Assembly: GCA_950295325.1 (NCBI GenBank)
Contig: OX485805.1
Span: forward strand, 43,672,758 to 43,736,757
Direction: 5' to 3'
Length of the DNA stretch: 64,000 bases
Origin: Polytrichum commune
Taxonomy: Eukaryota; Streptophyta; Polytrichopsida; Polytrichales; Polytrichaceae
Positions 6,218 through 60,317 of the stretch are shown in pieces. How positions within the stretch are numbered: the stretch's first letter is position 1; each line of letters starts with the position of its first letter. The translations under genes were made by a program, and so were the position numbers. Below the pieces are notes generated by a model that saw only the letters and a list, made by a program, of their open reading frames with translations, searched no databases and was not told the DNA's origin.

Positions 6218-9200
6218 TCACAACCAAAATTGTTCCGGCAAGCCGGGTATGTCTTCATCTCCTGCTTGTCCATCAACATCCGATGCACTCGATGACTCGC
6301 CCGAAGACCATGCTCCACCCCAAGCTGTTTCCCGACGTAGACCTCGGGCCACTCGTGCACCACCGGTCGCAACCTCGGCTACCACCTCGGGCACATGGCC
6401 TGCATCCAACTCTGCTCCCACGGCCCCCACTATATGCATGTGAGCCTCCAACTCCTTGTTCACAGGGGCTGCTCCAAGCTGAACCCCATCGCCCGGACGT
6501 TCCACACGACTACTCCGACTGTCCTTTTGGAGAACCACCTTCCACCCTGCATCAATTGCATCCTCGAAGAAAAACACTTGTCTCACTTGGTGGGGGAACG
6601 CATATGGTTGCTCAGTAGCACGTTGTCTACGGTTGAAGTTGGCGAGCCAGAAGCCATATTTGTCTCGCTTAATTGAAGCATTCCCATTCTCCTGTGGGGG
6701 AACCCAACTTCCCCTAAAAAGAATAACAGGCGTCTGATCATACGACATTCGAATGATTTCACGAAGTACTCCGACGTACGAAAGCACTGCCTCCTTCACG
6801 TTTGTATCCGCCGTACTGGTCCGTGAACCTTGCTCTGCAATTAAGGCGATGCCACTATCAAATGTAGTGTGCCCGGTATCCCCGTCACCTGCCACTACTC
6901 TAAAGTGATTCCCGTATGCTTTGCAGCTGCGGAAAGATAGAATCTGAGGAGACAGTGGAAATGCAAATGTAGTGACCTCCAATGGAAGTTCAATGCCTGC
7001 TGCCATTTCCTCCCGCACTTTGACTTGCAACCAATTCGGGAAGTTGCCTACAACAGCTAGTGCTGGAGGGTAGACCATACGAGATCGGCCTCGTCTTCGA
7101 TTCCGGGCTCGATACGCAGCCCTACCTGCCTCCATTTCCTCCCGTGTGCACAACCACTCCCTGACAAGCACAACCCTCGTGAATGATTCCCCAACCACTA
7201 ATCCGTAACCTCAGTGTCCAGGACAATCCAACATGGCACATCCGATGCCATTGCACACGTTCTATGAAATCAGCAATGCCCAAGATACCTACATACCAAT
7301 AACAACATCCACATGAGACACACTTGCATCACCAAGTTCGATGGAAATTGGACAACCTGTAATAAGACTCAGTGGCAGGGGAGTTTGTTACAACATGCAA
7401 ATGGGCAGCATTCAACTCCACGTCCGCCAAACGTCGTGCACTCCCGTAACCTTCAAGCTCCACTCCACTAATTCCAGGCTCCTCTTCTGCATCCCAAACC
7501 CTTGTTCTTGTATGTTGGAAACCCTGCAAAAACTCTGTGCACAACCCTAGTGCCTCTTCGACAATGTAACCCTCCGCCATTGACCCCTCTGGGAGAGAGC
7601 GATTCCGCACGTACTTCTTCAATACTCCCATGTACCTCTCCATGGGATACATCCACCTGCATGCAACGGGCCCACATATTGCTAGTTCGTCAACTAGATG
7701 AATGACAAGGTGTGACATTATATCCCAAAATGAAGGAGGAAACCATGCCTCCAATATGCACAGCGTCTCCGCCGCATACTCCTTCAGCCACGATATTTCC
7801 CCTGGTACAACAACCTTTGCACAAATCTTTTGGAAAAGAACACTTAGCCTTATAATTCCTGCCCGTGCTCCAGGGTGAAGTACATGTCATACAGCCACCG
7901 GCAAAATTTGTTGGGAAAGTATGTGCATGTCGTGCGACTTTAGGTTCTGGATTTTTCCCTTCACCACATGTTTACGCAAAGAACCTGAATACCCTGAGGG
8001 AACTTTTAGCTTCCCAATTCCTACCAAAAACTTCGTCCGGCTCACACGATCAAGGACATATGGTGCATGTGGTTTCAACTTCGTTCCAGTTGGGATGTCA
8101 TCCCGCTCTTGCAACCACAAACCTGGTCGGATTGACAGCTCTCGCATGTCTTCCCTCACGGCTGGAGTGTCTTTATCACCTAACATGGTCCTCAATATAT
8201 TATCCATGACATTACGCTCTATGTGCATAACGTCCAGTGTGTGTCGCACTAGAAGGTGCTGCAAACAATGTCAACACCACCACAATTCTTCTTTCAAACC
8301 AACATGCCAAACTCATAATATTAACACACTTGGGGATTCCAAACGCAAAATCCACTCATGACATCTGGCATACTTCCCCCTCACATTCCCATCAGTGCCA
8401 CTAAGAAGATAAAATCTAAACTCCCTCCAATGTAAGATGCACAACATATAACATTAGCCTTACGTTATACCAATGACCTTTGAAAATGTTGAGTTACAGG
8501 TAAATCTCCAAGTTCCATGCGGTACATCGTACCTCCCAATACGGTAAATCATATAATGCGCTCCTCCTCTTTATCCCTGTCACTCGAACAGGATCCTCTC
8601 GCATAGGCCGCGTACCATCCACCATGAACCTCTCTCTCGCATCTGCCCATTCCAAAACTTGAGCCGAAGTCACCCTTGGTGGAGCAGTCCGCCACTCAGG
8701 AACAAAGTTAAATGCCTCCCCACCGTGTCTGAAGTTATGCAACACATTCAACCACTTCCTGTGTTGACCATCATAAACTGTCTTCCGCAAATGAGTAGAA
8801 TACCTGCCACAAGTTGCTGGTCCACAATGTGGGCATGCAACATAGCCCTTTGTTGCGCACCCGCTTATCAATCCCAACCCTGGAAAGTCTGTCACAGTGT
8901 ACAAGCACACCGCGCGCATCAAAAACCTGCTAGCATTTCCCCGTGTCATTGCATCATCCACCCATACGCCTGGATTCCATAAGTCCTTCAACTCCTCGAT
9001 GACAGGAGCAAAATATACATCAAAAGTCTTTGAGCTCGGTGCATGGGTGTCGCAACCCTTGCTAAGCCCCCTTGACAATCTTGCCAATTTTCCATTTTAG
9101 CAAAGGTTACGAGCGCTAACCATTCGCATTCCGCCATGCTAATGGTGAGCTCCTCCTACCCCGGACCTTATAGTTCATAGGAGGGAACCAACCCTCCTAC

Positions 9201-12200
9201 TTTGCTTTTGGGACTCACCCCTTAATCGGTAACCATTCCTTAGATGTGGACTTCCATCCATGGAAGCCCAATCCTATGTTGATCATCGCATTGCCGGAGC
9301 AACACTACAACAACCCGAACCATACTAGGCAACTATGGCCTCACAATGAGCCAATGCCCATGGACGCCTTGCCGTTTGGCCTCGGGTGGGTGAGGCCACA
9401 CCACCTCACCCATATAAGCCTCTAGGACTCTACGCGGGGCCCCTACCCCACCGTCAACCAACCTCTTGTCTCTACCAAGAGTTGGGGCCAAGTGGACAAT
9501 TTCCCTTAGCCGCTGGGCCTAGAAGCCCCCACAGCTTCAGACCATCATAACTTCCTTGTATGATCTTTGATGCTAACACTTGACCACTCCATCTTCATCT
9601 ACGCTTCACGTAGATGCCGATGCACTCCTCACTTGCCCCATTCGGGCAAGTGGTGAGGAAGTTATACCTGTTTGAACCTTGGCAGTCCCGGGAATCACTC
9701 CCAGGCACTGCTGTACCAGGGCGCTGTCCCGGGACAGCGCCCCACTCAAATGGCCATAACTCCTAGCTCACACCTCCGATTGAGGTGTTCTTGAGCATTC
9801 TAGAATCACCACGCCATGAGCTACGCATAGCTCATGGCCTTACCCTAGTGCCTCCTAGTCTCCGTGGGTGGGAGGCGTTCCCAACGCCCGCGGCCCTCAC
9901 CCACACTAGGATCACTTGGGCCCTCTCACCAACGGCGCCACAAGTCCCGGGTGTCACTCCGGGGTCCCCCTTGTGCCCATGGTGTTTCGGGCACTCCTCA
10001 TGGAGAGGTGCGCGACAATGGGGCCCTGGAATGAGTAGCGTCAAAAGTATGAAAAATTTCTTGCACATGACCCACGGAGGTAAATTCAGAATGACAATAA
10101 GCACAGGCCAAATTGACCAGCTGCTGCTTTTGAATGAAAACGGATTTAATCCGTCAGTGCTTATGAGAAGCCTAGGATTCCTCGCCTCCCCACCAAAGTC
10201 CAGGTACATGGCATCTACATGCTTCCAAGCAGGTGCATCCGCAGGGTTTCGCATCAATCCATCTTCCGAAGGGTTCTCAGCCCACCATGTCATCATTTTT
10301 GACAAATATTCTGTTCCGTACATTCTTCTCAATCTAGGAGTTATAGGAAAGTGTCGTACCACCTTCACCGGTTTCTTGTCTTTGCCACGGCGATAAAATC
10401 TTGGAGTCAAACATTTTGGGCAACGATTCAACAATGCATAGGGACCCCTAAAAAGTATACAACCCTTCAAACATGCATGAATCACCGTGTACCCTAATCC
10501 AAGTGCTCTCAAAAGTTTTGTTGCTTGCCTTTCTGTCTTTGGAAGACAGTTTGGTTGTGGCAAGATTTCATTACTCAAGGCCCGAAGAAGCTCATCTACA
10601 CATGTATTGGGCACACCATGGGCTTTGCAGATGGTAAGGATAACAAGAAGTGCACCCAATAAGGAAACTGTGGCGCTTGCGTACAGGGGAATCCTATCTG
10701 CTTCTCCCAAACGACGCAGAAGTTCATCCTCCATCTCCATTGTAGCCTCGTCTGCATCTGCCCTTGGAAAATCCCAGGTTGTTGGCCTTGAGTCTCCTTC
10801 ACCCTCACCTCCGTTATCTTCACTATCAAAATATGTGTCATCTACCTCCTCCTCGTCGATGGATACTTCAGCATTCTCATCCGCAGGCGACCTTGAAATA
10901 TCGTCCTCGACTAAAGGTTCGGAGGCATCAACAGGAGCACTACCCGCATCGTTGCGCTTCAAAATCAGAGGATCATCACTCCTACGGAAAGCTGCAGCTA
11001 CAAGTTCAGTCATCTCAATCTGAGTGTCCAGTGCAACGGGAACTGGTTCCAAGTCGTCCGGTGGGAGACCATTTGGGCCTCCAAATTCAGCATAGTTGGC
11101 TCTCAGGGCACGCTCGTGCCACACCCACTCCTCATCGCTTGAATCCTCTGCTTCATCCTGCAATCATCCATTATTCCTTAATGCAGTCACATAATTTTCC
11201 ATGGCTATATCATGCAAAAGGAACTAAGACATCAACAAGGAATATAGGAGAATTGTATTGACCGTCATCTATCCATTGACTATGTAACTCCATGGATCTA
11301 CTGTGGGCACTTCCTTACTCCACATGAGCCGAAATTTGCAATCGTATTTCATCTTGCCATCATGGTAGCCATCATAACCCCTGATGTCATAGGGCGATAA
11401 TTTGTATGAACTTCTCGTACAAATCATGTATAGGTAACAATTGGACACATCAACCACAACTGCAAGCATGCAAAAGACACATAAAGATAGTTAGTACACC
11501 CGGGTCACTTACAAACACCACCCCAGACTTTTGGCTTCCCGGACTTTAAAATCAATCTCATTTCATTGGGATTAACTACAACGCATGCCATTCCTTCCCA
11601 CACATTTGCCTCTCGCATAGGCCATTGTGATACAACCTTGGACATAGGCACTTGGTAACTTCTGGGAGGACTTTCATTATTCTAACAGGTGGCTGCAAAG
11701 GGGCAGATGAAACAAGTACCTGGTTTTACCCACATTCCTTCCCACAAATTTGTGGACCCAAACTATCATGAAGAACGTGGACAGAAACCAACCAACAATA
11801 AATGTTCACTTGAAGCCAACAATCCTACACTTGCTTGGGATTTCATAGGAAGCCACTTTCTGCAAGGAAGTTCTCAATGGAATTTTTTTCTCCACTTGAG
11901 ACTCCAATCCAGCTGAATGTGCATGTGAGTTTAATTATTTCAATAACACCAGAATTTGTAAAGTCATCAAAGATAAGAAGTGTAAATCTCAAAAGTGATA
12001 TTTGAGTGAATGTTTGTGAACTCTTTTGCATTGCATTGGCCGTAAGAATGTCAGGAGATTCTCCAAAATTTGATGTGCAACTCGTCATTTTTTCTACCTC
12101 CAAAAAAAACTTCCACTGTTACACTCTTCACACCACCTAACACAAATACTTTATAATAAACCAATTGACAAAACATGGACGGCCAAAAACAATATTGAAT

Positions 12201-22172: not shown

Positions 22173-22537
22173 ATAGAACAGGAACACGTGGCAGCAGCGG
22201 CCGTGGTGGCATTCTTCAAAGGCAGCCGCTGACCAACCGACAACGAGGAAGGAAAGACGACAATCCTCCGATGTTGCCACTGACGTGATTTTATGATGTT
22301 GATGGTGATTCTGAAGCGTCGAGGAAAATGGAGAGAGAGAGAGAGATCGGAGGGGACTATAAGAAGACTTGTGAAGGCCTAAGAAAATGCGGTGACGAGA
22401 GATATGGTTCGATCTCGTCTTCCTGTTGTGTTCAAGTACGAAGAGGGCGAGAAAGATGGACATACCTGGAGGTATGAGGATGCTCCGCCTTCTCCACTCT
22501 CTGATTCTCCTCCTCCGCCTATGGAGGCACCCATATG

Positions 22538-22544
22538 TATATAG
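22538..22544 (+). promoter_or_regulatory. Candidate TATA box upstream of kinase copy B
   Basis: TATATAG in the context cccatatgtatatagcagctgag, conserved exactly at 50072-50078 in copy C and followed by a GC-rich stretch. It lies about 2.6 kb before the start codon, so it would serve this gene only if the 5' leader contains introns (an acceptor-like tgcag lies just before 25077). Position and conservation are seen; the role is inferred. Confidence 0.3.
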
Positions 22545-22840
22545 CAGCTGAGATGGAAACGCAATTTCATATGGGACTCATTAGTGGCAGGCAGCAGCAG
22601 GTACTGTAGTTTAATTAAGGAGAGACTCTTTCCCAAGAGCCGGGCGAAGGCAAATGGTTCTGAGCTGGCTGCAGGAGGGGACTCACGGGAAGCAGTTGGG
22701 GAGGGCCTGGGCAGCGTGGCCTTTGGGCTTGGAACATCACTGGCACCCACGAGGCAGAGCTCGTTGGCGAGTGTTTAGCAACTTACGGGCCCTTCAACCT
22801 CCTGTCGGTAAATCCTGGCCATGGCCGGCCTGCACTAAGT

Positions 22841-23209
22841 TTGAGAATTCATACTTCGCGTAGTAGTCTTAGTCTGCGATTGCGGTCGTGGATGTGCAGC
22901 GGGAAAGGGAAGGACGATCGGGTGGAAGAAGATGGCCCTCGTATACAAATTTCTGTCAGGTTTTGCTCATCCCCGCCTGTGTCTCCTTTTGTCGGTGTAG
23001 GAAAATCTTGCTTTCGCCCGACAGAGATGCCAACCTTGGTAGGAATAGGCTATGAACTCTATAATTCGATCATGTATTCTGTTTGGCTGCACATGTTAAG
23101 AATCCTCCTTGCATCGGTGAGTGGAATCCCACAAAGGCTGATCATGGAGCTGAGCATTCAAGTTTCAGAAGCAGAGTTGAGATGCAAAAGTTATACGAGG
23201 TCTAAGTGA
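22841..23209 (+). CDS. Small conserved ORF, 122 aa, upstream of kinase B
   Basis: Reads MRIHTSRSSLSLRLRSWMCS through MPTLVGIGYELYNSIMYSVW to a basic C-terminus. Copy C keeps the same frame (124 aa at 50371-50745) with in-frame length change in a tagtag run near the start and about a dozen substitutions. Residues 81-94 (YSVWLHMLRILLAS) form a short hydrophobic helix. I do not recognise a family. It may be a short gene, part of a 5' leader of the kinase, or chance: conservation between recent duplicates is weak evidence. Confidence 0.25.
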   Translation: MRIHTSRSSLSLRLRSWMCSGKGKDDRVEEDGPRIQISVRFCSSPPVSPFVGVGKSCFRPTEMPTLVGIGYELYNSIMYSVWLHMLRILLASVSGIPQRLIMELSIQVSEAELRCKSYTRSK

Positions 23210-23501
23210 AGAGTCCTTTACATTTAGGAAAACTGGTTCGTAGCCGTTTCGTGATAGTGGATCCCCATTTCCTCGAGGCCTTTTGTAGCAACAAGTACGA
23301 GATAAGGATCACAAAGATCAAGACGTATACCAGAAATACAATGAGATTCCGCACTCTCTGGATGATCGATAGCCTGATCTCCGTGCCCTCTCTCTGTGAT
23401 AAAGTTTCATCGATCCTGTTACTTGTCTCGTGATTCAAGCTTATGTAGAAGCAGACCAAGGATTTCCATGTCTTATGCATGTTGTTGAATCTGGATATCA
23501 C
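23202..23501 (-). CDS. Small ORF with one hydrophobic segment, minus strand (uncertain)
   Basis: 99 codons on the strand opposite to the kinase; copy C keeps 81 codons (50760-51005) with near-identical sequence. It has a strong membrane-like stretch LIVFLVYVLIFVILISYLLL preceded by a charged region (IDETLSQREGTEIRLS). A plus-strand ORF overlaps it, and only one or neither can be real. No family recognised. Confidence 0.2.
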   Translation of the reverse strand: MISRFNNMHKTWKSLVCFYISLNHETSNRIDETLSQREGTEIRLSIIQRVRNLIVFLVYVLIFVILISYLLLQKASRKWGSTITKRLRTSFPKCKGLFT

Positions 23502-23509
23502 CTGTATAC

Positions 23510-25080
23510 ACTCAATGCTCTGTCATGCTAGCCGTAGGGAACTGGTTTGACAACCAACAAATCCATTTGTCATAATTTGACTATATGCACCCAGGAGTCT
23601 CTTCAGTAGGAGTACGTTTACAGAACTTCGGTTTGTAATTCGGCTCTCATTTTACTTCCCGTGCAACTTTTGTTCAGAGTGGAATTGTAGACATACCGCA
23701 TGCACATATCCATGTACCCATCCGATCATTGCGGACTTACGGTGTCATTTCTGCAGTATATGTTCCTGTTATTAAGTGATACGTCAACCTGGGCCTCATC
23801 TCTAGATTGATAATTGGTCATTGTGCTCTGCAGATCTGTGTTCCAAGCTGCAGGAACCCTTTCTGAGGGACGTCGTAAGACTTCTGGTTCTTGTGTAACA
23901 CACGGTACTATGAAGAAAAATCATGTGTAGGTAATTGAATACATTTCAGACGGTCCATGTTGTTGACATATTAATTCAGAGAACAGGAGTCCTTGTGTAA
24001 TATAGGTTGTTATATTTTCATCATTATTAAATGGCATGGAGTCTGCATCGTTTGGATTAGGAACATGTGGCACTACTGGAACTGGCCAACAAATAAGGTT
24101 GTGCATCAAATTGTGGCAAGCGATTTTACCAAAGGCGATTTCTTCTCAATGCAGGTCTCTGCAAAGATTGGCCATAGGGAAAGCTTTCAAAGATATGGAT
24201 AAAGTTGTTTAAAAGAGGTGCATGAAATGAGAAAAATAAATTGATATTAAAGTCCAGGAAGCTCAAAGGGTTATCGGACTAGAAGTACATCAAGATGGTG
24301 TATAAAGAATAATATTGTGTGGGGATGGAAATTCTTCCAAGTATATTCTTCTAGGTCAATTGTGGAAGATTTGGTCTTGTAGATATTATGCGGGATTCCA
24401 GATTATTTACGCAGTAATGAAAGGCCAGAAAGGAAGTAGAAAGACCACATTGGTATTGGTATTGTAATTGCCATCTCCTTGAAGATGTTGGCCATCTACA
24501 CGCGGACATATACACATGGACATTTACATGTGCAAGATATGCATCTCCAGAGAGAATAAGTTGTTACCACTTATCGTGAGGGAAGTGTTCTTTGTGAAGA
24601 TCTTTGTTGGGGGTCACAACGTGCATTACAATGGCAGTTCGTGGGTATTAAGTATATCAATGAAAGGGGAGAGCTGGCTACTACTCACAGTTCAACTGGT
24701 TCGTTTTCCCTAATTTCGGGTTTAAAATTCAAACTCTAGGAAATTTACCGAACTACATTTTTGGGAAATTTTCCTACTTATGTTAGAATACAATGAACAA
24801 CCGAAGCGTTTCATTGAATATCCGGTTGTCAATAAAGAAGTAAAGAGAGTGACCGAGTTGGCTCAAATTTCTCCTCGTTCACTGAAGTATATCCCTGGTG
24901 TTGCTTAACTAATTGCAGAACTCCGTTGAAGTTGAAGGGTGCTTCTGCCCATCCTCAAATAATCTTTTATATGTTATATTTCTTACTTGGTCAAGGTGTG
25001 TTTTCTGTGGTCATGTAAGTGAACTAATTTTCACCTCGAAGTAATATTCTTGTCATCTCTTGCTCTTGCGTGCAGGAACT
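23510..25080 (+). other. Upstream/leader region of kinase B
   Basis: About 1.6 kb without a convincing frame, closely matching 51010-52620 in copy C. It ends in a pyrimidine-rich stretch and gcgtgcag|gaacttcag, a plausible acceptor of a 5'-leader intron about 60 nt before the start codon. No other signal seen. Confidence 0.4.
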
Positions 25081-25121
25081 TCAGACCAGGGCGCACTGTG
25101 CACTTCCTGATTAGGCAGGAT

Positions 25122-25145
25122 ATGCTCGCTGACATCAATGGCTAA
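25122..25145 (+). promoter_or_regulatory. uORF overlapping the kinase B start codon
   Basis: ATG at 25122 reads MLADING and stops at TAA 25143-25145, overlapping the main ATG (25138) in another frame. Copy C keeps the same arrangement (52665-52688, MLADTNG). A uORF that ends just past the main start usually lowers translation from it. The transcript start is unknown, so its presence in the mRNA is inferred. Confidence 0.5.
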
Positions 25146-27849
25146 TTATTTGAGGTTTTCTGGAGCTGTCCTAGATGAAATTGAGAGTGGTTTGTCGACC
25201 AGGAGGATCATCTTGCAATTGAACGACGCACAGTGCAGTCGCCTCCTTGGAAATCTTAGGGAAACTCATGATCATTTTTACCAGAGCCTATTGTTCCCAA
25301 GACGTACACTACGTGAGAAATGTCTTCCATTTTATAAGGAGTTCTATCGCATTGTGGATCATACAGAAGCAATCGTGAAGGAGTGCAGTAAGCCAGATTG
25401 GCTGGAAGCAGCCATCATGCAAGCGGGCAACCAAGAGGTATTTAAACAGATGTCCCGGAAGCTCCATTTCTGCATCAATGGGTTTACTGAGACCGTTGAA
25501 CCTGTTCTTCACATCTGCAGTAACATTAAGTTCACTGCTCTAAGTGTAACAGTGGAGCAACATGAGAGGGATGAGGACTTCCGTCAAGATTCTTTGAAAT
25601 TTATGGAACGACTTAAGGAGGTCGTGAACCAACAGGTTTCAGAGGACACCATCCTAGATCCTAGGAAACACCAACTCGCAGAATACCTCATTGAACGTGA
25701 GAATTACGTGCCGTCCACAAACCTTGACTTGTATACATCTCTCCCACAATTCTACGTTGCAAAGCGTGAGTACCCAAGAGTTGGGGAACCCATTGGGTCA
25801 GGCGCAGCTGGATCGGTTCTGAAGGTGCGCTGGTTGGGGCTAGAATGTGCTAAAAAATACTTTGCTACTAATCCTGATGAGAGTAACTCACCACGGAAGT
25901 TGGAGCTAATGAAGGAGGTGAGCGCCCTGATGCATTTAAGCCATCCACATATTGTAAAGCTGCTCTGTGTGAGTATGGAACGTGAGGCTTCTTTTTTGAT
26001 GGAGCTCATGCCGATGAGCCTCCATAATTTCATCAAGAAACGATGGAAGGGGCAGAAATACGTCCCCTTTACATTGGCAGCTGCCACTGACATTATGTTG
26101 CAGATTGCCCTAGGTATGGAATATCTTCATGGCAAAAGAGTGGTCCATCGCGACTTGAAATCCCAGAATATCCTTGTCACCCCTTCAGCTTGTGAAGGAC
26201 TCTCTGATGAGGGCTATGGAGACATTAAGGTGACAGATTTTGGGTTGTCTAAGACACTGACTCATGAGTTAACTGAGCCTACTGGGATATTAGGAACTAC
26301 TCGTTGGATGGCACCCGAGGTGTTAAGATTGAAAGAAGGCTTGAAACCAAAACTTGACTGGAGAAAAGCCGACACTTACAGCTTTGCAATGACGTGTTCG
26401 GAGATACTCACTGGGGCTACACCTTTCTCTGAAGGTGATTGCAGAATAGATATGCTGTATGCAAGGATCACCAAGGGTGAAGAAAGACCAAAGCTGCCTT
26501 CGGCATGTCCAAAATTTCTAGCATCTTTGTTGACACAATGCTGGGATACAAATCCAGCTCTCCGTCCCAGTTTCACCGAGATCTGCAACATGCTTCAACT
26601 CCTCCAAGGTTTCCTATTCAGAGGCTCTGAACTGATCCACAGGAGCTGGTCATTAGCAGAAACTTCGAGTTTGGATCAAACGAGTGCACTCAGACGTGCA
26701 ACAGGGCCAGAGCAGGACATACTCGTTAAAGTAGGCTTATCCTCGTTGAAGCAGTCCATATTTGACACGTTCTTCAGGTCCTCCAAGATCTTCAGGTCGC
26801 AGTTGATAAGTCCCCAGTGTGATGAGGAGGTTTTGTCAACCATCCTCATGGGGAATTTCCCACAACCAGTGGGTTTACGGGGAGTACAGGTATTTGAATT
26901 TAATTCCTCTCTAATTTACGAGTCAAGGAAGGAATTGGAATTGAGGACGATGACAAAGTGTAGATATTTTGTAGAGGGGATGAAGACATTGACTGACAAT
27001 CCTCGTAACCATCTGGTGAAATTGCAATACTGGCATTACGCTTCTTTGAAACACTCAGAACATAAGAAGCTTTATGTTGTGTATGACGCTTGGTCAAGCA
27101 CTCTTTACGAGCATCTCAGTGGATTAAAGAAGACGCTCCCGTGGAATACACGGTTACATATATTAACTGGATTCATGGCATGTGTTGTGTACTTCATGGA
27201 GCTGATTGAGCTCAATGTGATTAGCTCCATTTCTCTCAGCACCAAAAGCGTCCTTCTGGACAAGAGCTACAACTTACACTTTACTGATGTAAGTCTGGTG
27301 CACGACGCTGGACATGTTAAGGCAACCAACGGGGATAATCTGAAAGGCATGGTTTACGAGATTGGAATTTTCATAATGAACGTTCTAAGTGGAATCAGGA
27401 AGGACCATATTGATACCTCAGATCAATATGCAATAGGAGAGAAACTTACCTTAGATCCACAGTGGGTGCAAGGCTTCATTGACCCGAGGCTGAATACTGG
27501 TTACCATACAGGCCAAGCTGGTACTCTCTTGACCCTCAGTCTCATGTGTACACATCCTAATGAGCATGCGAGGCCAACCATCTGGTTAGCTCGGGATATA
27601 ATTACCTCAACTGCGGATATGGCAACAAAGTTAACTCGTTCTCAAGTCCAAGAGCAATTTTCAGCTCTTGATTTCCTCGAGTGCAACGGAGCTTCTGAAT
27701 TCACATGTCAAGAGATGAGGGATATGACTAGCAATTTCTCGACGCCCAAAGGATATGGGAAGTACCTCGGGACATTGCCAAATGGAGAGAAAGTATTGGT
27801 GGACCAGTTGCATCCTAGTTCTGCATCTCCAAAAGAATTTATCGATCAG
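25138..27849 (+). CDS. Kinase gene copy B, exon 1: helical N-domain, active TKL kinase, pseudokinase
   Basis: 904 codons in one open exon. Residues 1-200 look all-helical with a conserved-looking DWLEAAI segment (87-93) and may be a HeLo/Cbl-N-like bundle (inference). Kinase 1 (about 212-495): Gly loop GSGAAGSV at 220-227, Lys240, alpha-C Glu260, HRD 337-339, DFG 367-369, APE 392-394; it should be an active Ser/Thr kinase of the TKL group. Kinase-like domain 2 (about 580-825): helical elements and YDAWSSTLYEHL, but STKSVLLDKSYNLHFTDVSL stands where HRDxKxxN and DFG belong, so it is a pseudokinase. Domain 3 begins at 854 (FTCQEMRDMTSNFSTPKGYG); its VAIK lysine is Asp889 (VLVDQLHPSS). The donor is at 27849/27850 (cag|gtacat), phase 0; without splicing it stops at 27870. 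The start was chosen at the first in-frame ATG (MANYL), shared by copy C. Signalling in immunity or stress is only a guess from family style. Confidence 0.88.
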
Positions 27850-27935
27850 GTACATTTTCTAATGAAATAATTGTGGATGGAACACAACCACCGCATTTCC
27901 TCATTTCAATAGCTCTCATATTATGGTATTTATAT

Positions 27936-28044
27936 GGTATGAAGTGACCAGGCCTGGTATGAAGTGACCAGGCCTGGTATGAAGTGACCAGGCCTGGTAT
28001 GAAGTGACCAGGCCTGGTATGAAGTGACCAGGCCTGGTATGAAG
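27936..28044 (+). repeat. 20-bp tandem repeat in intron 1 of copy B
   Basis: Five exact copies of ggtatgaagtgaccaggcct followed by a partial ggtatgaag. Copy C has one unit plus the partial (55496 onward); copy A has lost the region. Each unit contains the palindrome accaggcctggt across the join. Confidence 0.97.
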
Positions 28045-28604
28045 AGTTTGAGATTGCACTCAGGAGGTATGCAAGTTCGTTTCAGTGCCTCACAAGGCCA
28101 TTCTATGCACTTCGAGAAACAATTGAGAGGTTCGATAAGAATTTGGGAACTAGAGTATATCTCAACTGAGGTGCCTAGTTTTAATGCTTCAATTTGTGTA
28201 GACCAATGTTGGTTTGGTATATATGTGAATGCATGGTATCAATAATCAACATCCATGATGGTATGGAAGAACCACCCGTGGGTGTCAGAATTGTACACCA
28301 GTCAAATATTGATATTTGGTTGGTATGTCAAGGTGAGAATATTTGTAGAGCCGAATTACTATTTGGGTCAGTACCATTCGAAGCCATATTGATACTCGGG
28401 GATTTTTTCCTAGGTATGAAGGTTCTTGCAATGTTGATAGACCCGAATTGTATCGAAAACAAAAGTAACGTCAGCTCTCTATACCCTACTGGTCTCAAGA
28501 AATGTGAAATCCTCATCATAGATATGCAGTGGGTATGAGAAAAGGACAATATGAGACCAACACTGGTCTAGACTATATTGAGAGATTTGATTTCTTTGTT
28601 CTAG

Positions 28605-30961
28605 GTCAAGGTGTACACAAAACTGCCAACTTGGTGTTTGGTCATGAACCCAATTGGCTTCTGCGTGGAGGAGGGTGAGCGAATACTCATATACAGGGAT
28701 ATGGAGACAATGCCTGCACAAGTATATCTAGGTGAGTCACATTAGTTTCGTAGGAATTTGATCGTACCAGATTCAATTCTTTGTAGTGATTGATACAATT
28801 GTTGCCCTTTTTGCAGTTGTATCTCGTGTATGTTGATGTTTTGAGGATAGAATTATGATTTTTGGCACAGGGGTTCTTGCAAAGGCTTCTCTAATTACAA
28901 CCAAACAACACTCAAAAGCATTGCAGGACGAAAGAGGTAAAGAGGTTCCTCAACCATTACCACTTAATTTCCAAAATCATTGTTAGAAGGACAAACATTG
29001 TTCTTAGAATGCCATCCGTAGATTGTGCACATTTAGGGCAATATTATATGCATTGATTATGAGATACTTTGACACTTCATTCCCGAATGTTTAATGAAGC
29101 ATGTGGTTATAGACCTGAGGGATATGGAGACAATGCCTCGAAAAGTATATCTGGGCGAGTCACACTAGTTTCGTAGGAATCTGATCCTATCAGATTCAAT
29201 CTTGCCGTGATAGTTATGTTTGATTTTTGCAGTTGTATCTAGTGTGTGTTGATGTTTTGAAGATAGAAATATGTTCTTTGGCAGAGGATAATGCAAAGGT
29301 CTCCCTAATTACAACCAACCCACACTCGATAGCATTGCACATCGCAAAAGGTAAATTGACTTTTTAACCATCACCACTTCATTTTGCAAAATCATTCAGT
29401 TGCACAATCATTGTTCTTAGAGTACCATCCTTGGATTTTCAAGCAACATTGTATATGAGATACTTTGACACCTTCATCCCCAGATGTTTGATGAAGCATA
29501 TGGTTGTGGACGAAATAGGCTTGAATTCGTTATGCAACATGGGCATCGTCCTCCACAACACAACTTTTGATAATATTCATGTGACAAGAAATGGAGATGT
29601 AATGTTTGGATTACAATTTGAGGAAGAAAACAGCTTGACGAAGTCTGAGTAAGGACTTCATTTCTCACTAGCTCTGAAGTCTTGATTTTTAGATAGGCTA
29701 CGTGTGTCACCATCACGTTGTGCTTGTATAGTTAGTTGTTGACCTAGTGAACCTGATTATTCTTGTGATCTATTGGTAGGATTCATGTCAAACTTCAAAG
29801 TCCAGGTAATTCATCCCCCATGATCCTGATTATGCAGGAAACTCTCAAAGCAAATGGAAGATTTTGGTACCATACTGGGGCAGCTTGTATGCGGGCCAAA
29901 ATGGCAGTCATCTTTTGGTACACCTATGCACTTGAAGAATATGGTAATGTTCTCTCTTTTAAATCATGAATTTTCTTGCATTAGCCTTGTGAACTACAAG
30001 AATCAGTTGGGCTCATCACATGCTCCAAGCGGGTGATGATTGCGTCCAATGTCATGACACATCCGCAACTTTTCTTATCTATCTATCTATGCACTGGATT
30101 GGGACTATTTTTAATTCGTCTTTCATGGAATTGAAATTCGACTTCCACAAATAAAACTTATTATTCTAAAGAATCATGAGATGAATCTTGCCTTTGTGAT
30201 GTTCATGAGTGATGAATTAAATAAGGTGGAGCATGCTAAACCATTACCCCACCCAAAACCGACACCCTAAAATCTTCCACAATAAGTACATCTTGATTTT
30301 GAGAATGTTCACTAGCTTAACATCAACCTCCCGAGTCCCCTGATGCATTTGGATCATATACCAACAAAACTCTGAATCCTTTTAACTATTGCATACGGCA
30401 TTGGGATAAGGCATAATGTGATGCATTGGAATCCCTTTCAATCGTGAATGAGACACATTAGGCCTTTGTCCATCTAATATAAGTAGATATACTAAGGGTT
30501 TTATACAACGGTTTGAGCATTGTCTACTTTATGTGGCCACTTCAACAACATTGTCAATTCACATGGAGGCATAAATGACTATGTTAATTCAACGTTCAAC
30601 GTGAATGAATTTGTTATTTTACACAAAAGGCTAAAGGAGTATCTGCAAGTTAAGTTGAATAAGCTTAGATATTTGTGTACATAACAAGCCATGAATATCA
30701 AGAGTTTTTCTTTTGAATATCTCACTTTTATTATAGGTAAACATAGAAAACTAAAAACTAAGACGAATGTTGCAGGCAATTCATATTGAGCAGTTTGTGG
30801 ATCCTGGGTTTCTCAAATTCAACAACTTGGCGATGTCACAACTTGCAATTCTAGCATCGATGTGCCTAGAAGAGGGGCATGCAAGATTGAGTATGGTTGA
30901 CGTCATTCAAAAGCTAGAAGGAGTGGCGGAATCATGGAGAGGTATGGAAGTTGTGTTTTGA
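28605..30961 (+). CDS. Kinase gene copy B, exons 2-6 (third, degenerate kinase domain)
   Basis: Exon 2 28605-28731 (VMNPIGFCVEEGERILIYRD), exon 3 28871-28936 (ITTKQHSKALQDERG), duplicated exon 3' 29285-29350 (ITTNPHSIALHIAKG), exon 4 29519-29648 (GIVLHNTTFDNIHVTRNGDV), exon 5 29838-29943 (EDFGTILGQLVCGPKWQSS), exon 6 30776-30941 (HIEQFVDPGFLKF, LASMCLEEGHARLSMVDVIQ). All have GT/AG borders with matching phases. The order follows a plant receptor-like kinase from beta-3 to the C-lobe. Lys, HRD (LHN here) and DFG (MFG here) are all lost, so the domain should act as scaffold or regulator rather than enzyme. If exon 6 is read through its donor, the protein stops at 30961 after GMEVVF. Confidence 0.78.
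28697..29520 (+). repeat. Internal tandem duplication of about 420 bp containing exon 3 / 3'
   Basis: Sequence from gggatatggagacaatgcct (28696) to the tcattcccgaatgttta area repeats at 29118 onward, about 415-422 bp downstream. It includes the end of exon 2, an intron, exon 3 and the following intron. In the second unit the exon 2 donor has changed from ggtgagt to ggcgagt, so only exon 3' remains usable. The same duplication is present in A (about 950-1718) and C (about 56170-56989), so it predates the tandem array. Confidence 0.85.
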
Positions 30962-32845
30962 GTTGTGTTTCTTACAAATAGACCTATTTCCTTGTCATTT
31001 TTCTCATCAATTTATTTTTGTGCAAATGTTTAGGAAAAGGTTTGTCATTTTTATGAACGTCTACCACTTCAACAGTAGTTGAATTGGTTAGAATGTATAG
31101 CTTTGAATAGATGTCAAACATCGAGCCAACAACTTGAGTAGCTGGGATACATCTTCACCAGGGATACAGGTGCGATTCAGATCTTTGCCAAATCACGCTA
31201 CTGGTACCCATTGTATTTCACCCACAAATTCGAAGGTCACCGGATCAATCGGTCATCTTAGAAATTGTGGACACTGAGGGGCTTAGCGAACTTAGTTACA
31301 CTTTATACTTGGGGCCGGATTGAGGGCCGGCCTGAACTCTCAAAATTTGGGCCAATAGGATCGCTCGATTTCATCAAATCAGGTCCAAGGGCTTTATGTT
31401 TGGGGCCGGCCCGAACACTCACTCATCCCATGTGGCGTCCTAGGTGGGACAACTTTGGCGCCAAACCATCGGGCCGTAGATGAGAGTTCGGGACGAGCTT
31501 TTCCTCGGCCCGAACTCCCATCTAGGGCCCGATTGGGCTCCTCCGTTGGATTGAGCTCATCTTGTCCGTTAATCATTAGGGGGTAAATTCTTTTCCTCTC
31601 CTCTTCACTCCACTTCTCTTCACTCCATTCCTCTAATAGCATAATAATAAATATAAATATGATTGCATTAGACTAATAAGGCAACAATTAGGGCGTTAAT
31701 CACATACTTAAGAAAAAATGAAACATTCAAGCATTTGATCAAGCATATAGTATGATTTAAGCTATGGGTTAGTCTAATAATGCATTAATTAGCTACAATA
31801 TGATAGCATTAGGCTAATAACACAACAATTAAGGTGTTAATCACACACTTAAGATAAAAATGAAACATTTGAGCATTTAATCAAGCACATAGTATGACTT
31901 AGGCTATGGGTTAGTCTAATAAGGCAAAACTTAGTATAAGTATGTTAGCAATAGGGTAATAACACAACAATTAAGATGTTAATCATACAGTTAAAATAAA
32001 AATGAAACATTTTAAGTTGTCAATCAAGAATTTGATGTGCATTAAGCAATAGGTTAGTCCAATAACACAATAATTAGCACAAATCTAGTAGCATTAGACT
32101 AATAACACAACAATTAGGGTGCTAATTACACACTTAAGATAAAAATGAAGCATTTAATCAAGCATATAGTACAACTTAAGTTATGGGTTAGTCTAATAAG
32201 ACAACAAGTAGTATAAATATGGTAGCATTAGACTAACAACACAACAATTAAGGTGTTAATTATACACTTAAGACAAAAAAAAAAAAACATTTAAGCCGTT
32301 AATCAAGAATATGGTGTGCCTCCTTAACCACACTCGTTGGTTAATCCATTGAACATGGTAGATAAATTTATAGGAGCATTTTGACGGCGGAATAGATTCA
32401 AAGGCCCCAATTTAGTCTAGTGGGACCCAATTTCAATTCATTAATCACAACCCTATAGATGTCATCCCCATAGTATTAAGTCTCATGAAACTTAATTGTC
32501 GAGAACACCGAACATTGACCGTGGTAATTTCTATGAAACTTAAGCCTCAAGACCATCGGGCCCTAGAATCGGGCCTCACCACTTTACATGTGACAAGGTT
32601 GGGCCCCAAAAAAGTTCATAAAGTGGGGCCGGATTGAGGGCTTCATCGGGCCGGTGCTCCGGCCGGCCCCAGGCCGTGTGTAATGCCGCCCTTAGTTATA
32701 CTTTCTAGGAGTATGTACCAATGATTCTACGGTTCTAATTTGGAAAATAAGTGTTTGAGATGGTACATTATTATACAATCCTCACTAATTTGGAGCTGAA
32801 GTTGGTGGAAATTCTAATGTTAAGATAATATGTAACAGATTATGT
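30962..32845 (+). repeat. Repeat-rich intron 6 of copy B
   Basis: GC-rich GGGGCCGG blocks at about 31310-31530 and 32570-32690 flank a tandem repeat of about 140 bp (about 31650-32320, nearly five units). It lacks the Harbinger MITE found in copy A and so shows that element's empty site near 32690. No coding potential seen. Confidence 0.7.
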
Positions 32846-32848
32846 ACT

Positions 32849-33271
32849 TTGGGATTGGTAAGTTCATATGAGACTATTGCCCAGGAGTTTACTGTCCATG
32901 AGCCTAGGCCTGAATCACGTTGGCATGTGCTGGAGGCGAAGCGGGAAGGGTATCGTTTCAGGCAGGCAAGTGAAGGCATCATGTTTTATGGCCTGGTGAA
33001 TGTGTTTCGCCTTTGCAGTTTCCTGTCAAGGACAGAATTTGTTGTCCAGTTCTTGTGGCTCATGGGGGGAGACCGGGGAAATGTGCAGGTTCTTAAAATG
33101 AGACAGCTGGATCGAAATGAATCCCAAGGCTATCAAGAACCTCTTGTAGAAGACTTGCTGCAAAGTCTGTCGTATCGTAAGGATCATGAGAATTTAGTTG
33201 GATATTGTGGCCATAACAACGACCTTTACTTGTTGTACAATGTGCACTATGAGTGTTATATCCCTCCATAA
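32849..33271 (+). pseudogene. Kinase copy B, fourth kinase-like domain fragment (RLCK-VII/PBS1-like)
   Basis: The frame GLVSSYETIAQEFTVHEPRP continues to KMRQLDRNESQGYQEPLVED and HENLVGYCGHNN, then stops at 33271. The QLDRNxxQG and NLVxxxGYC spacing is characteristic of RLCK-VII (PBS1-like) kinases, where the first motif reads KQLDRN; here Lys is Arg. Coding-like remnants continue to about 34530 in shifting frames (SPKSLEKF at 33280; VIDYRDVQG and IDDYAARDLN around 34460-34530, recalling VIYRD and the region before DFG). A 0.95-kb inverted-repeat element splits the remnants. The acceptor seen in copy A has lost cag here, so this part is probably no longer spliced in. Confidence 0.6.
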
Positions 33272-33360
33272 TCTCCGAAGTCTTTAGAGAAGTTCATTAC
33301 CTTTCCTAATCTAAACTTGTTACAAGGTCTTGAATTTGCTGTCTAAGTTGCGAATCATTA

Positions 33361-34312
33361 GACTACTGTACGTTAAGGGCAGCTTCGGCACAAAATAATT
33401 CTAAAAATAGATGCCGAACTTTTTGGAATATTATTAGCATTTTTGCCGAATATAAAATTAATTATTTTTCAAAATTGCCAAAATGTAAGAATTTTTTACT
33501 TCTCACTAGAGTTTTACTTAAAGTGGAAGCATATGTGAATTTTGAAGGAGAGAAGGTGCTCATTTTGTAATCAAGCTCACTTACATTAGCCCACAAAGAA
33601 TATGGGTTAAGAAGTAGCAAGACTCTAGGTGAGGCTTTTCAAATGTGTTGTACACAAATGTTTGGAGTCCAATTGAGCATAGAAGATGAAGTTTTATAGA
33701 ATTTTGTCCAACTAACAAAAGTTGAGAAATCAATCTTTCTTCCACCTCCAACACGTTTTGTGTCAAAATAAGTCTTTATGCAAAAGATATGGACAAAACA
33801 TTGCAGCCGTGTAAAGATCAAAAAATTAAAATGCGTTCATAACAGTTTTTCGGAGCTCATTTGTGCATAGAAGATCAACTTTTTTGGAATTTTGTGGGTC
33901 TAAGAAAAGTTTAGAAATCAAGTAATCTTTCACCTCCAACAAATTTTATGTCATTTGAAGACTCTATGCAAAAGTTATGCGTGTTATAAAAATGAAGTCT
34001 AACTAGGTGCTTCACCTCAAAGTTTACATATCCCATATGCATTGTTGAACACAACTCCACTCTACTTGCATAAAGCACAGAGCATTCTCAACTCTTTACT
34101 CACATCTTACTTGTCATTCAATGCGAGAGAGATGTACAAGATATAAGCTTAAATAGAAAATTAAAAATGAATTTAAGCCGAATTTTTAAAAATTAAAATA
34201 GAATATTGCCGAAAATATGAATATACTATTTTAAGGTACTGAACCTACTTTTTGAACTTTAATTAAATATTTGGCAGCAAGGTGCCGAAGCTGCCCTTAA
34301 CGTACGGTAGTC
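33361..34312. mobile_element. Inverted-repeat element in the fourth kinase remnant, copy B
   Basis: Ends match over about 31 nt with one difference: gactactgtacgttaagggc at the left and the reverse complement of gactaccgtacgttaagggc at the right, both continuing agcttcggca. The interior is AT-rich and non-coding with ttttggaat/aaaattcc runs. No target duplication found. Copy C lacks it because of a larger deletion (B 33.16-34.67 kb). Confidence 0.75.
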
Positions 34313-35084
34313 AGGAAGTTGTGGAATGTTTCAAGAGATGCCTACCATGTGAGCTTGAGAGATGATGCGGGTTCAGCGCGAAAGAGGAGACTTTTGAATT
34401 TAAGCCTTGCAAAATGCATTGACGGCAAATGTTATTACGCATTAGTGAACTTGCAATGTAATTGATTATCGAGATGTCCAAGGATGATTCAACACAAGAT
34501 TGATGACTATGCAGCTCGTGATTTGAACTGTTGTCGTTTCATTATTCCTACGTATACTCATTCCTATAAGCCTTATAAAGCATTTCAAGAGCTCCTCTAC
34601 CTAGAGGGAGGAGACCCGGTGGGAAAGAAGGGAAGGAAGAGTTGAAGATTGTTTGAATACGGTATGTGGGTGTTATTTGGTCAATCGTTTTTGTTCTCCA
34701 TCTTCTATTGGTCATATTTTACGTCTTCAAATTTGTGTTGCAATAGCAAATGTATGATGAATCACCAAAAAAATTAGGATTTCCCTTGATTTAGTTACAT
34801 AAATTATGGGCAGTGCATGAGTTACTTCCTCGCTGAATGAGCACATAGAGGTTCCTCTAATTGTGTTGAGTATCGAGTATACTAGAGTAGTTAATACAAT
34901 TTGAAGTTGGAGTCCAATTTCTTTTAAACGTGTGTTTTATGGTGTTTGTAGGTTCTTAGATCCACATCTAACCACACATTAATCAATTATAATTGTCCAA
35001 TTAAGAAATAAAATTGGATAGCACTTGCATACCTTACTAACATGTTGAAATATTGTAAGAAACATGGTTTTCAAGTGAAACTTC

Positions 35085-49670: not shown

Positions 49671-50071
49671 TAAACACCATAAACGGTGTAGGACTCGAAA
49701 GGCAGCGTTATAGAACAGGAACACGTGGCAGCAGCGGCCGTGATGGAATTCTTCAAAGGCAGCCGCGGACCAAGCCACAACGAGGAAGGAAGGACGACAA
49801 TCCTCCGATGTTGCCACTGACGTGATTTTATGATGTTGATGGTGATTCTAAAGCGTCGAGGAAAATGGAGAGAGATCGAGATCGAAGGAGACTATAAGAA
49901 GACTTGTGAAGGCCTAAGAAAACGCGGTGACGAGAGATATGGTTCGATCTCGTCTTCCTGTTGTGTTCAAGTACGAAGAGGGCGAGAAAGATGGACATAC
50001 CTGGAGGTATGAGGATGCTTGCCTTCTCCACTCTCTGATTCTCCTCCTCCGCCTATGGAGGCACCCATATG

Positions 50072-50078
50072 TATATAG
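50072..50078 (+). promoter_or_regulatory. Candidate TATA box upstream of kinase copy C
   Basis: TATATAG identical in sequence and context to 22538-22544. Confidence 0.3.
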
Positions 50079-50370
50079 CAGCTGAGATGGAAACGCAAAT
50101 TCATATGGGACTCATCAGTGGCAGGCAGCAGCAGGTACTGTAGTCGAACAAGAGACTCTTTCCCAAGAGTCGGGCGAAGGCAAATGGTTTTGAGCTGGCT
50201 GCAGGAGGGGACTCACAGGAAGCAGTTGGGGAGGGCCTGGGCACGCTGGCCTCTGGGCTTGGAACAGCGCTGGCACCCCCGAAGCAGAGCTCGTTGGCGA
50301 GTGTTTAACAACTTACGGGCCCTTCAACCTCCTGTCGGTAAATCCTGGCCATGGCTGGCCTGCACTAAGT

Positions 50371-50745
50371 TTGAGAGTTCATACTTCGCGTAGTAGTAGT
50401 AGTAGTAGTCTGCAATTGTGGTCGTGGATGTGCAGCGGGAAAGGGAAGGACGAGCGGGTGGAAGAAGATGGCCCTCGTATACAAATTTCTCTCAGGTTAT
50501 GCTCATCCCCGCCTGTGTCTCCTTTTGTCGGTGTAGGAAAATCTTGCTTTCGCCCGACAGAGATGCCAACCTTGGTAGGAATAGGCTCTGAACTCTATAA
50601 TTCGATCATGTATTCTGTTTGGCTGCAAATGTTAAGAATCCTCCTTGCATCGGTGAGTGGAATCCTGCAAAGGCTGATCGTGGAGCTGAGCATTCAAGTT
50701 TCAGAAGCGGAGTTGCGACGCAAAAGTTATAAGAGGTCTAAGTGA
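50371..50745 (+). CDS. Small conserved ORF, 124 aa, upstream of kinase C
   Basis: Counterpart of 22841-23209 with the frame kept throughout. The (tag)n run near 50390 adds serine codons in frame. Same doubt about whether it is a gene or a leader sequence. Confidence 0.25.
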   Translation: MRVHTSRSSSSSSLQLWSWMCSGKGKDERVEEDGPRIQISLRLCSSPPVSPFVGVGKSCFRPTEMPTLVGIGSELYNSIMYSVWLQMLRILLASVSGILQRLIVELSIQVSEAELRRKSYKRSK

Positions 50746-50759
50746 AGAGTCCTTTACAT

Positions 50760-51005
50760 TTAGGAAATCTGGTTCCGTAGGCGTTTCGTGATAGCGGATC
50801 CCCATTTCTTCGAGGCCTTTTGTAGCAACAAGTACGAGATAATGGTCACAAAGATCAAGACGTGTACTAGAAATACAATGAGATTCCGCACTCTCTGGAT
50901 GATCGATAGCCTGATCTCCGTGCCCTCTCTCTGTGATAGAGTTTCATCGATCCTGCTACTTGTCTCGTGATTCAAGCTTATGTAGAAAGAGACCAAGGAT
51001 TCCAT
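50760..51005 (-). CDS. Small hydrophobic-segment ORF, copy C (uncertain)
   Basis: Counterpart of 23202-23501, with LIVFLVHVLIFVTIISYLLL as the membrane-like segment. It is shorter at both ends because an A/G change and a 1-nt length difference alter the frame. Confidence 0.2.
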   Translation of the reverse strand: MESLVSFYISLNHETSSRIDETLSQREGTEIRLSIIQRVRNLIVFLVHVLIFVTIISYLLLQKASKKWGSAITKRLRNQIS

Positions 51006-52664
51006 GTCTTATGCATGTTGTTGAATCTGGATATCACCTGTATACACTCAATGCTCTGTCATGCTAGCCGTAGGGAATTGGTTTGACAACCAACAAATCC
51101 ATTTGTCATAATTTGACTTTATGCACCCAGGAGTCTCTTTAGTAGGTGTACGTTTACAGAACTTCGGTTTGTAATTCGGCTCTCATTTTACTTCCCGTGG
51201 AACTTTTGTTCAGAGTGGAATTGTAGACATACCGCATGCAAATATCCATGTGCCCATCCGATCATTGCGGACTTACGGTGTCATTTCTGCAGTATATGTT
51301 CCTGTTATTAAGTGATACGTCAACCTGGGCCTCATCTCTAGATTGATAATTGGTCATTGTGCTCTGCAGATCTGTGTTCCAGGCTGCAGGAACCCTTTCT
51401 GAGGGACGTCGTAAGACTTCTGGTTGTTGTGTAACACACCGTACTATGAAGAAAAATCATGTGTAGGTAATTGAATACCTTTCGAAAGGTCCATGTTGTT
51501 GACAAATTATTTCAGAGAACAGGAGTCCTTGTGTAATATAGGGTGTTATATTTTCATCATTATATAATGGCATGGAGTCTGCATCGTTTAATTTGGATTA
51601 GGAACATGTGGCACTACTGGAACTGGCCAACAAATAAGGTTGTGCATCAATTTGTGGACAGCGCTTTTACCAAAGGCGATTTCTTCTCAATGCAGGTCTC
51701 TGCAAAGATTGGCCATAGGGAAAGCTTTCAAAGATATGGATAAAGTTGTTTAAAAGAGGTGCATGAAATGAAAAAAAAAAATTAATATTAAAGTCCAGGA
51801 AGCTCAAAGGGTTACGGGACTAGAAGTACATCAAGATGGTGTATAAAGAATAATATTGTGTGGGGATGGAAATTCTTCCAAGTATATTCTTCTAAGTCAA
51901 TTGTGGAAGATTTTAGTCTTGTAGATATTATGCGAGATTCCATATTATTTACGAAGTAATGAAAGGCCAGAAAGGAAGTAGAAAGACCACATTGGTATTG
52001 GTATTGTAATTGCCATCTCCGAAGATGTTGGCCATCTACACGCGGACATGTACACATGGACATTTACATGGGCAAGATATGCATCTCCAGAGAGAATAAG
52101 TTGTTACCACTTATCGTGAGGGAAGTGTTCTTTGTGAAGATCTTTGTTGGGGGGTCAGAACGTGCATTACAATGGCAGTTCGTGGGTATAAGTAGATCAA
52201 TGAAAGGGGACAGCTGGCTACTACCCACAGTTCAACTGGTTCGTTTTCCCTAATTTCGGATTTAAAATTGGAACTCTAGGAAATTTACCGAACTACATTT
52301 TTGGGAAATTTTACCACTTTAAGTTAAAATACAATGAACAACCGAAGTATTTTAATGCATAAGCGGTTGACAATGAAGAAGTAAACAGAGTGACCGAGTT
52401 GGCTCAAATTTCTCCACGTTCGCTGAGGTTTATCCATGGTGTTGCTTAAACTAATTGCAGATCTCCGGTGAATGTTGAAGGGTGCTTCTGCCCATCCTCA
52501 GAGAATCTTTTAGGTGTTATCTTTCTTTCTTGGTCAAGGTGTGTTTTCTGTGGTCATGTAAGTGAACTAGATCTCACCTCGAGGTAATCTTCTTGTCATC
52601 TCTTGCTCTTGCGTGCAGGAACTTGAGACCAGGGCGCACTGTGCGCTTCCTGATTAGGCAGGAT

Positions 52665-52688
52665 ATGCTCGCTGACACCAATGGCTAA
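52665..52688 (+). promoter_or_regulatory. uORF overlapping the kinase C start codon
   Basis: MLADTNG, stop TAA at 52686-52688, overlapping the main ATG at 52681 just as in copy B. Confidence 0.45.
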
Positions 52689-55408: not shown

Positions 55409-56076
55409 GTACATTTATTGATGAAATCATTGTGGATGGCACACAACCACTGCATTTCGTCATTTCAATAGCTCTCATATTATGGTATTTATATGGTATG
55501 AAGTGACCAGGCCTGGTATGAAGAACTTGAGATTGCACTCAGGAGGTATGCAAGTTCATTTCAGTGCCTCACAATATGCAGTTCGAGAAACAATTGAGAG
55601 GTTTTATAAGAATTTGGGAGCTAGAGTATTATCTCAACTGAGGTGCCTAGTTTTAATGCTTCAATTTGTGTAGACCAATGTTGGTTTGGTATATAGGTGA
55701 ATGCATGGTATCAATAATCAACATCCATGATGGTATGGACGAACCACCCGTGGGTGTCAGAATTGTACACCAGTCAAATATTGATATTTGGTTGGTATGT
55801 CAAGGTGAGAATATTTGTAGAGCCGAATTATTATTTTGGTCAGTACCATTCGAAGCCATATTGATACTCGGGAGTTTTTTCCTAGGTATGAAGGTTCTTG
55901 CAATGTCGATAGACCCAAATTGTATCGAAAACAAAAGTAACGTCAGCTCTCTATACCCTACTGGTCTCAAGAAATGTGAAATCCTTATCACAAATACGCA
56001 GTGGGTATGTGAAAAGGACGATACGAGACCAACACTGGTGTAGACTATATTGAGAGATTTGATTTCTTTGTTCTAG

Positions 56077-60314: not shown

Positions 60315-60317
60315 ACT

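Follow-up and report, generated by a model that had tools for sequence, protein, structure and literature searches.

The locus described here raises the question whether a long kinase reading frame and the small exons downstream of it form one gene, and what such a gene could encode. It lies in a 64,000-nucleotide stretch of the moss Polytrichum commune (contig OX485805.1, C3:43672758-43736757), referred to below as the window; unless another contig or sequence is named, coordinates are window positions, and the gene and its copies in the window are on the plus strand. An earlier note on this DNA had proposed a single gene stacking an active kinase with two or three degenerate kinase domains. 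For one intact kinase and two pseudokinases this proved correct: the exons join in phase, the gene belongs to a family of nine copies, and the joined reading frame is under selection.

In the main copy of the window (copy B), exon 1 (25138-27849) supplies 904 codons ahead of its donor, GATCAG/GT (the slash marks the splice site). Its frame comprises 919 codons from stop to stop, or 910 counted from the ATG at 25138, and remains open for 18 bases after the donor, up to the stop codon 27868-27870. Exons 2 (28605-28731), 3b (29285-29350), 4 (29519-29648), 5 (29838-29943) and 6 (30776-30961) were placed by splice phase and by comparison of the nine copies. Exon 6 may be spliced at a donor after 30941 or, if left unspliced, read to the in-frame TGA at 30959-30961, just past the exon, where translation can stop. 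All introns are GT-AG and the phases agree throughout, in line with the splicing originally suggested for exons 1-6, and they do so with or without 3b or exon 3a (28871-28936), an in-phase duplicate of 3b. Exon 3a was rejected as a required exon, being decayed in three of the nine copies; when it is left out, exon 1 and the five further exons splice in phase to give a protein of 1,108 amino acids.

The first kinase domain, D1 (residues 211-490, 25768-26607), was identified by Pfam PF07714 with an E value of 3e-47, above the cut-off. Its best solved relatives in a search of the PDB sequences were 6lba (E 1e-43), an EGFR entry and 6ka4 (both 6e-39); we take 6lba to be AtMLKL2 and 6ka4 to be AtMLKL3, the PDB table labelling them "protein kinase family protein" and "F22L4.1 protein". 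Lys240, HRD and DFG are present in all nine copies, as is the Glu of APE, one copy reading SPE. The complete TKL kinase with these four motifs that had been read from exon 1 is thus borne out by Pfam and by the nine-copy comparison. The earlier note had not mentioned the first ~210 residues, which are, to judge by their sequence profile, a HeLo/DUF1221-like helical domain (residues 1-150, 25138-25587) with a brace-like region (residues 151-210, 25588-25767; boundaries approximate, placed by PDB and profile matches). A profile of nine related N-termini matched residues 4-220 of 6lba (E 3.8e-5), followed by unrelated entries (E 0.96 and 1.2) and then 6ka4 (1.6). The single N-terminal sequence (211 residues) gave nothing credible in the PDB (best E 0.45) and no Pfam match.

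D1 is followed by a linker (residues 491-560, 26608-26817) and by D2 (residues 561-835, 26818-27642), a pseudokinase of receptor-like kinase (RLK) type. D2 had no Pfam match. Its PDB matches with E values up to 1 numbered 17, and 13 of these were named plant kinases or IRAK3, among them a plant lectin receptor kinase (1.2e-6) and IRAK3 itself (4.5e-6); the others were two carbonic anhydrases at 0.17 and two unnamed proteins whose alignments cover the stretch that ScRIPK also matches. D2 had been described as a pseudokinase without HRD and DFG. The HRD is indeed gone, but the Asp of DFG persists as DVS in all nine copies. Relatives of D2 beyond the copies amount to five weak matches in the moss's own genome, with 27-40% identity, one 31-residue piece reaching 68%. 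The third domain, D3, opens at the end of exon 1 with the start of a pseudokinase N-lobe (27643-27849), delimited by the PDB match of the joined domain and by the splice site, and continues in phase over exons 2, 3b, 4, 5 and 6, of which exon 5 carries part of the C-lobe and exon 6 the end of the domain. Joined D3 matched 2qkw, presumably Pto (5e-6), SymRK (9e-6), FERONIA (4e-4) and BRI1 (0.01) in the PDB, and PF07714 with an E value of 1e-4, slightly below the cut-off; with exons 2-6 by themselves 2qkw was still matched (0.002). Its Lys is replaced by Asp and, in exon 4, HRD by LHN and DFG by MFG. Phases, PDB matches and motifs agree in supporting the third, degenerate RLK-type domain that had been proposed over the small exons.

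When the moss genome (407.8 Mb, 64 contigs) was searched with the exon 1 protein, the best 50 of 779 candidate matches were scored, and 11 of these represent nine copies of the gene. Eight (c1, A, B, C, c5, c6, c7 and c8) lie on C3 over ~0.21 Mb and the ninth, chr1, lies on C1. Every copy has exons 1, 2, 3b, 4, 5 and 6 in this order; the lengths of exons 3b, 4, 5 and 6 are constant in all nine, and that of exon 2 in eight (A has 6 additional bases). The GT/AG splice sites are kept in the copies, the GT donor of exon 6 in all nine, and so are the start codon and the exon 1 donor, which reads AATCAG/GT in chr1. The D1-D3 frame is intact in five copies (B, c1, c5, c6 and chr1). The second copy in the window, C (52681-58412), has the same exons with D1 broken by a 4-bp insertion; the third, A (1-3141), is represented by its 3' part, from the end of exon 1 to exon 6, with a broken D1-D3 frame. 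Copies chr1 and c1 are 95.7% identical over 10.7 kb, which makes the second location, on C1, a recent copy.

Nonsense codons and gaps were counted in the frame of copy B over the nine copies, small gaps being those below 60 nt. The joined exons contain 3 nonsense codons, whereas 42 are expected from the tree or ~25 from the 639 variable sites (P 3e-8). Seven of 20 small gaps in 3,307 coding bp break the frame, one of these arising from misalignment at the exon 1 donor in A and c8, compared with 36 of 39 in 2,497 intron bp. No nonsense codon occurs in D2 (7.4 expected, P 6e-4). Exons 2-6 have no frame-breaking gap and 1 nonsense codon where 4.4 would be expected, a deficit that is not significant by itself (P 0.07). 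Exons 4-6 vary at 64 of 402 sites and the neighbouring introns at 256 of 1,199 (p 0.021); variability at or above the intron level is seen in exons 3a and 3b, in the linker and in the D3 start. Codon models (own implementation, fixed tree) gave the following omega values for the nine copies: 1.86 (HeLo region, p 0.011), 0.88 (brace), 0.65 (D1, p 0.013), 1.60 (linker, p 0.0076), 0.89 (D3 start), 0.76 (exons 2 and 3b), 0.46 (exons 4-6, p 0.0025) and 0.66 (D3 in total, p 0.0097). Repeated on the five intact copies, the models gave p values below 0.05 only for the linker (2.68, p 0.0497) and exons 4-6 (0.48, p 0.048). Many sites picked out by the M1a/M2a site test on exon 1 adjoined indels, and the test was therefore rerun with the neighbourhoods of indels masked; M2a was still preferred over M1a with five copies (p 1.3e-5; linker sites 531, 540 and 541) and with nine (p 1.7e-9). 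Overall, the reading frame is maintained, with constraint on exons 4-6 and fast evolution of the linker.

Several observations weigh against the immune-receptor reading set out below. Four of the nine copies are broken. The omega of D2, 0.94 with nine copies, is near neutral. In the five intact copies neither D1 (0.84, p 0.46) nor D3 in total (0.67, p 0.08) differs significantly from 1, and the excess in the HeLo region falls from 1.86 to 1.40 (p 0.30), HeLo and brace together giving 0.95 after masking; claims of selection on the HeLo region and on D1 depend on tests that take in broken copies. Gene conversion between copies can inflate site tests. An AlphaFold model of residues 1-500 had a mean predicted local distance difference test score of 35 (three near-identical rows) and lends no fold support to the HeLo assignment.

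The remaining 39 scored matches of exon 1 point to the origin of the D1 module. They are 32-38% identical and cover the query from residue ~3-64 to 490-540. Adjacency to NB-ARC domains was determined with all 126 scored NB-ARC matches, the best 126 of 466 candidates. At least 23 of the 39 have an NB-ARC domain 58-1,099 bp downstream on the same strand, and in six cases the kinase and NB-ARC matches share one open frame length (1,280-2,924 codons). This adjacency indicates that the HeLo-like region with its TKL kinase is a common head of kinase-NLRs in this genome. Within 10 kb downstream of the nine copies none of the 126 scored NB-ARC matches was found (0 of 11 exon 1 matches).

Plant MLKLs such as AtMLKL2 and AtMLKL3 share with the moss protein a single chain made up of a HeLo/DUF1221 N-terminus, a brace and a TKL-type kinase. 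They are pseudokinases, their kinase domain lacking catalytic residues. The moss protein resembles them in its bundle and brace as judged by profile rather than by fold, and differs in that D1 is not a dead kinase, Lys240, HRD and DFG being kept in all nine copies, and in that two more kinase domains follow.

The HeLo-kinase Pm13 of Aegilops longissima likewise fuses a HeLo-type domain to a kinase with catalytic residues and confers mildew resistance, and HeLo domains from plants are able to trigger cell death; Pm13, however, has 476 amino acids and a single kinase of the DLSV receptor-kinase group (PMC10951266). The WTK1/Yr15 family, like the moss gene, joins an intact kinase to degenerate receptor-like kinase domains, but has two kinase domains (PMC6170490) where the moss gene has three and a HeLo-like N-terminus. 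As in tandem kinase(-pseudokinase) proteins, at least two predicted kinase domains lie in one coding unit, one intact and at least one degenerate. The same report describes 92 tandem kinase-pseudokinase proteins, one from Physcomitrella, as having no further conserved domain, and in this the moss protein, with its HeLo-like N-terminus, departs from them (PMC6170490). WTK6-vWA/Lr9 does combine a tandem kinase with an extra domain, and its second kinase has been proposed as an integrated decoy, but that domain is a vWA/Vwaint at the C-terminus and not a HeLo at the N-terminus (PMC10260399). Kinase-NLRs (Pkn-NLRs) are enriched in non-flowering plants (PMC11218826); relatives of D1 head such proteins in the moss genome, whereas in the gene studied here RLK pseudokinases follow D1 in place of NB-ARC and LRR. 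A HeLo-kinase fused to further kinase domains was not found in the open-licence literature searched, which does not amount to its absence from print. The suggestion of an independent tandem-kinase lineage is supported as far as architecture goes, D1 being an MLKL/kinase-NLR-type kinase with a HeLo-like N-terminus, which sets the gene apart from the cereal ones; a fourth kinase in the protein encoded in the window is not supported.

That fourth kinase, D4, had been noted as an RLCK-VII-like fragment. In c1, chr1 and c8 a complete RLCK-VII-like pseudokinase of four exons lies downstream of exon 6 (Pfam E 3e-19 in c1) and can be joined to it in phase; D4 is open in c1 and chr1, and its last exon has stops in c8. 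Because the AG of the acceptor initially considered is altered in all three, the join is made at another one lying a few bases upstream. Outside the copies, D4 is closest to a canonical RLCK-VII gene on contig C2, which has intact motifs, shares the exon joints and is 67% identical across its third exon. By kinase homology and exon joints D4 of c1 belongs to the RLCK-VII group, the window holding a remnant only. Within the stretches compared, all that is left of D4 in the six other copies is fragments of its first exon or of its first two. In B these pieces (32844-33245, from exons 1 and 2, recognized by the nine-copy comparison) show an internal deletion in the first exon, and the third and fourth exons were not found; the exon 7-like stretch 32789-33268 had no match in Pfam or PDB on its own. 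D4 was accordingly ruled out as part of the window's own gene and kept as possible for c1 and chr1. D4 exons diverge about as much as D4 introns, so that selection on D4 is not demonstrated. An earlier value of 14% divergence for the D4 stretch was dropped, as part of it came from copy A beyond base 5422, where the sequence is unrelated.

What the protein does can be proposed by analogy. We put the chances at about even that this kinase fusion, in which HeLo-like helices and a brace precede an active-looking D1 and the pseudokinases D2 and D3, works like a tandem-kinase immune receptor. The simplest mechanism that we infer is a bait-gated execution. D2 and D3, with their likeness to receptor kinases targeted by pathogens, would serve as bait or lid and at rest would restrain D1 and the HeLo-like bundle. 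A pathogen protein touching or modifying them would release D1, which might signal by phosphorylation, free the bundle, or both; the freed bundle could then act at membranes and cause local cell death. The pseudokinases would thus occupy the place that NB-ARC-LRR has in kinase-NLRs sharing the D1 module. More tentatively, the gene may encode a plant intracellular immune receptor of a new class. In it, an MLKL-like executioner made of HeLo and active TKL kinase would carry a row of receptor-kinase pseudokinases instead of an NLR sensor, and the kinase folds would number up to four in c1 and chr1. If true, a single molecule from outside the flowering plants would unite a necroptosis-like effector, an NLR head and a tandem kinase. 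Some tandem kinases of cereals appear to depend on separate NLRs to kill the cell. With candidate bait and candidate killer domains in one polypeptide, the idea of sensing by a pseudokinase and execution by a kinase-HeLo unit becomes testable with a single gene, and it bears on how early land plants exchange sensor parts on a single N-terminal module.

The main rival to this immune-receptor reading is a purely regulatory role of D2 and D3, which would regulate or scaffold D1 like the JAK pseudokinase, making the protein a signalling kinase in stress or development and not a pathogen sensor. An active-looking D1 with adjoining pseudokinases and the constraint on D3 exons 4-6 are what such a kinase would display; as a tandem array with gains and losses and a fast linker is more like immunity genes, and D1 is akin to NLR heads, we consider this role somewhat unlikely. 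It is distinctly less probable that the fusion was functional once and that most copies, including those of the window, are now drifting pseudogenes. The deficit of nonsense codons and frameshifts over nine copies speaks against such a decay, as do the five intact copies, one of which lately moved to another contig, even though four copies are broken, D4 is eroded in six of nine, and omega is near 1 for D2, the brace and the D3 start.

The remaining alternatives concern the extent of the gene. In c1 and chr1, exon 6 could be spliced onward into D4 to yield a protein with four kinase folds, as the exon 6 donor kept in every copy and the in-phase, open D4 with the joints of the canonical RLCK-VII gene would allow. 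We regard this longer protein as rather doubtful in view of the in-frame TGA that follows exon 6 in eight of nine copies, of a D4 that is complete in only three, one with stops, and of D4 exons diverging like introns. Conversely, exon 1 (HeLo, D1 and D2) might end at 27870, the later exons being a relic of a separate receptor kinase. The 18 open bases beyond the donor would suit two adjoining genes, but D3 starts within exon 1 and continues in phase over splice sites conserved in all nine copies, and exons 2-6 are free of frame-breaking gaps. The exons standing in order in all copies and the deficit of stops and frameshifts in the joined exons make it very unlikely that a transcript ending at 27870 is the whole gene.

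Some further features of the locus were recorded. Upstream of exon 1, ~3 kb are common to B and C (22173-25137 and 49710-52680; 94.5% identity over the whole aligned block), possibly the promoter and 5' leader. From exon 1 onward (25138-33165 in B, 52681-60634 in C) the two copies are ~4-8% divergent over most segments as far as exon 3b, with 1.5% in exon 3a, and from exon 4 on they differ by 0-2.4% except for a 20-nt tail; the low divergence of the 3' half suggests gene conversion or unequal exchange there. AT-rich sequence with 2-3 tandem repeats separates exon 6 from the fourth-kinase remnant in B (31632-32321), C (59103-59795) and A (3740-4160), and in c1, c7, c8 and chr1 this gap is just ~0.5 kb. 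No tRNA or Rfam match above the gathering score was obtained in the window.

Two further elements were noted at the D4 remnants. A 0.95-kb element with 31-nt inverted ends, 97% complementary, lies inside that of B (33361-34312) and is missing at the matching place in C. The D4 piece of copy A is cut at 5423, where sequence starting with CACTA begins, followed by tnp2-type transposase genes. A CACTA-type DNA transposon extends from 5423 to ~16500, with tnp2 Transposase_21, DUF4218 and DUF4216 on the minus strand at 6218-11163, and appears to sit inserted in the remnant; its other end was not found by a 12-base search. Elsewhere in the genome, two adjoining D1-type matches at C1:11031529-11034585 (minus strand) share an open frame length of 1,137 codons and may be a further tandem kinase, one consisting of two HeLo-kinase modules. 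Behind D4, the last 226 bases of exon 1 (the D3 start) recur with ~90% identity at L009:8582-8807, and likewise in chr1 (L015, minus strand).

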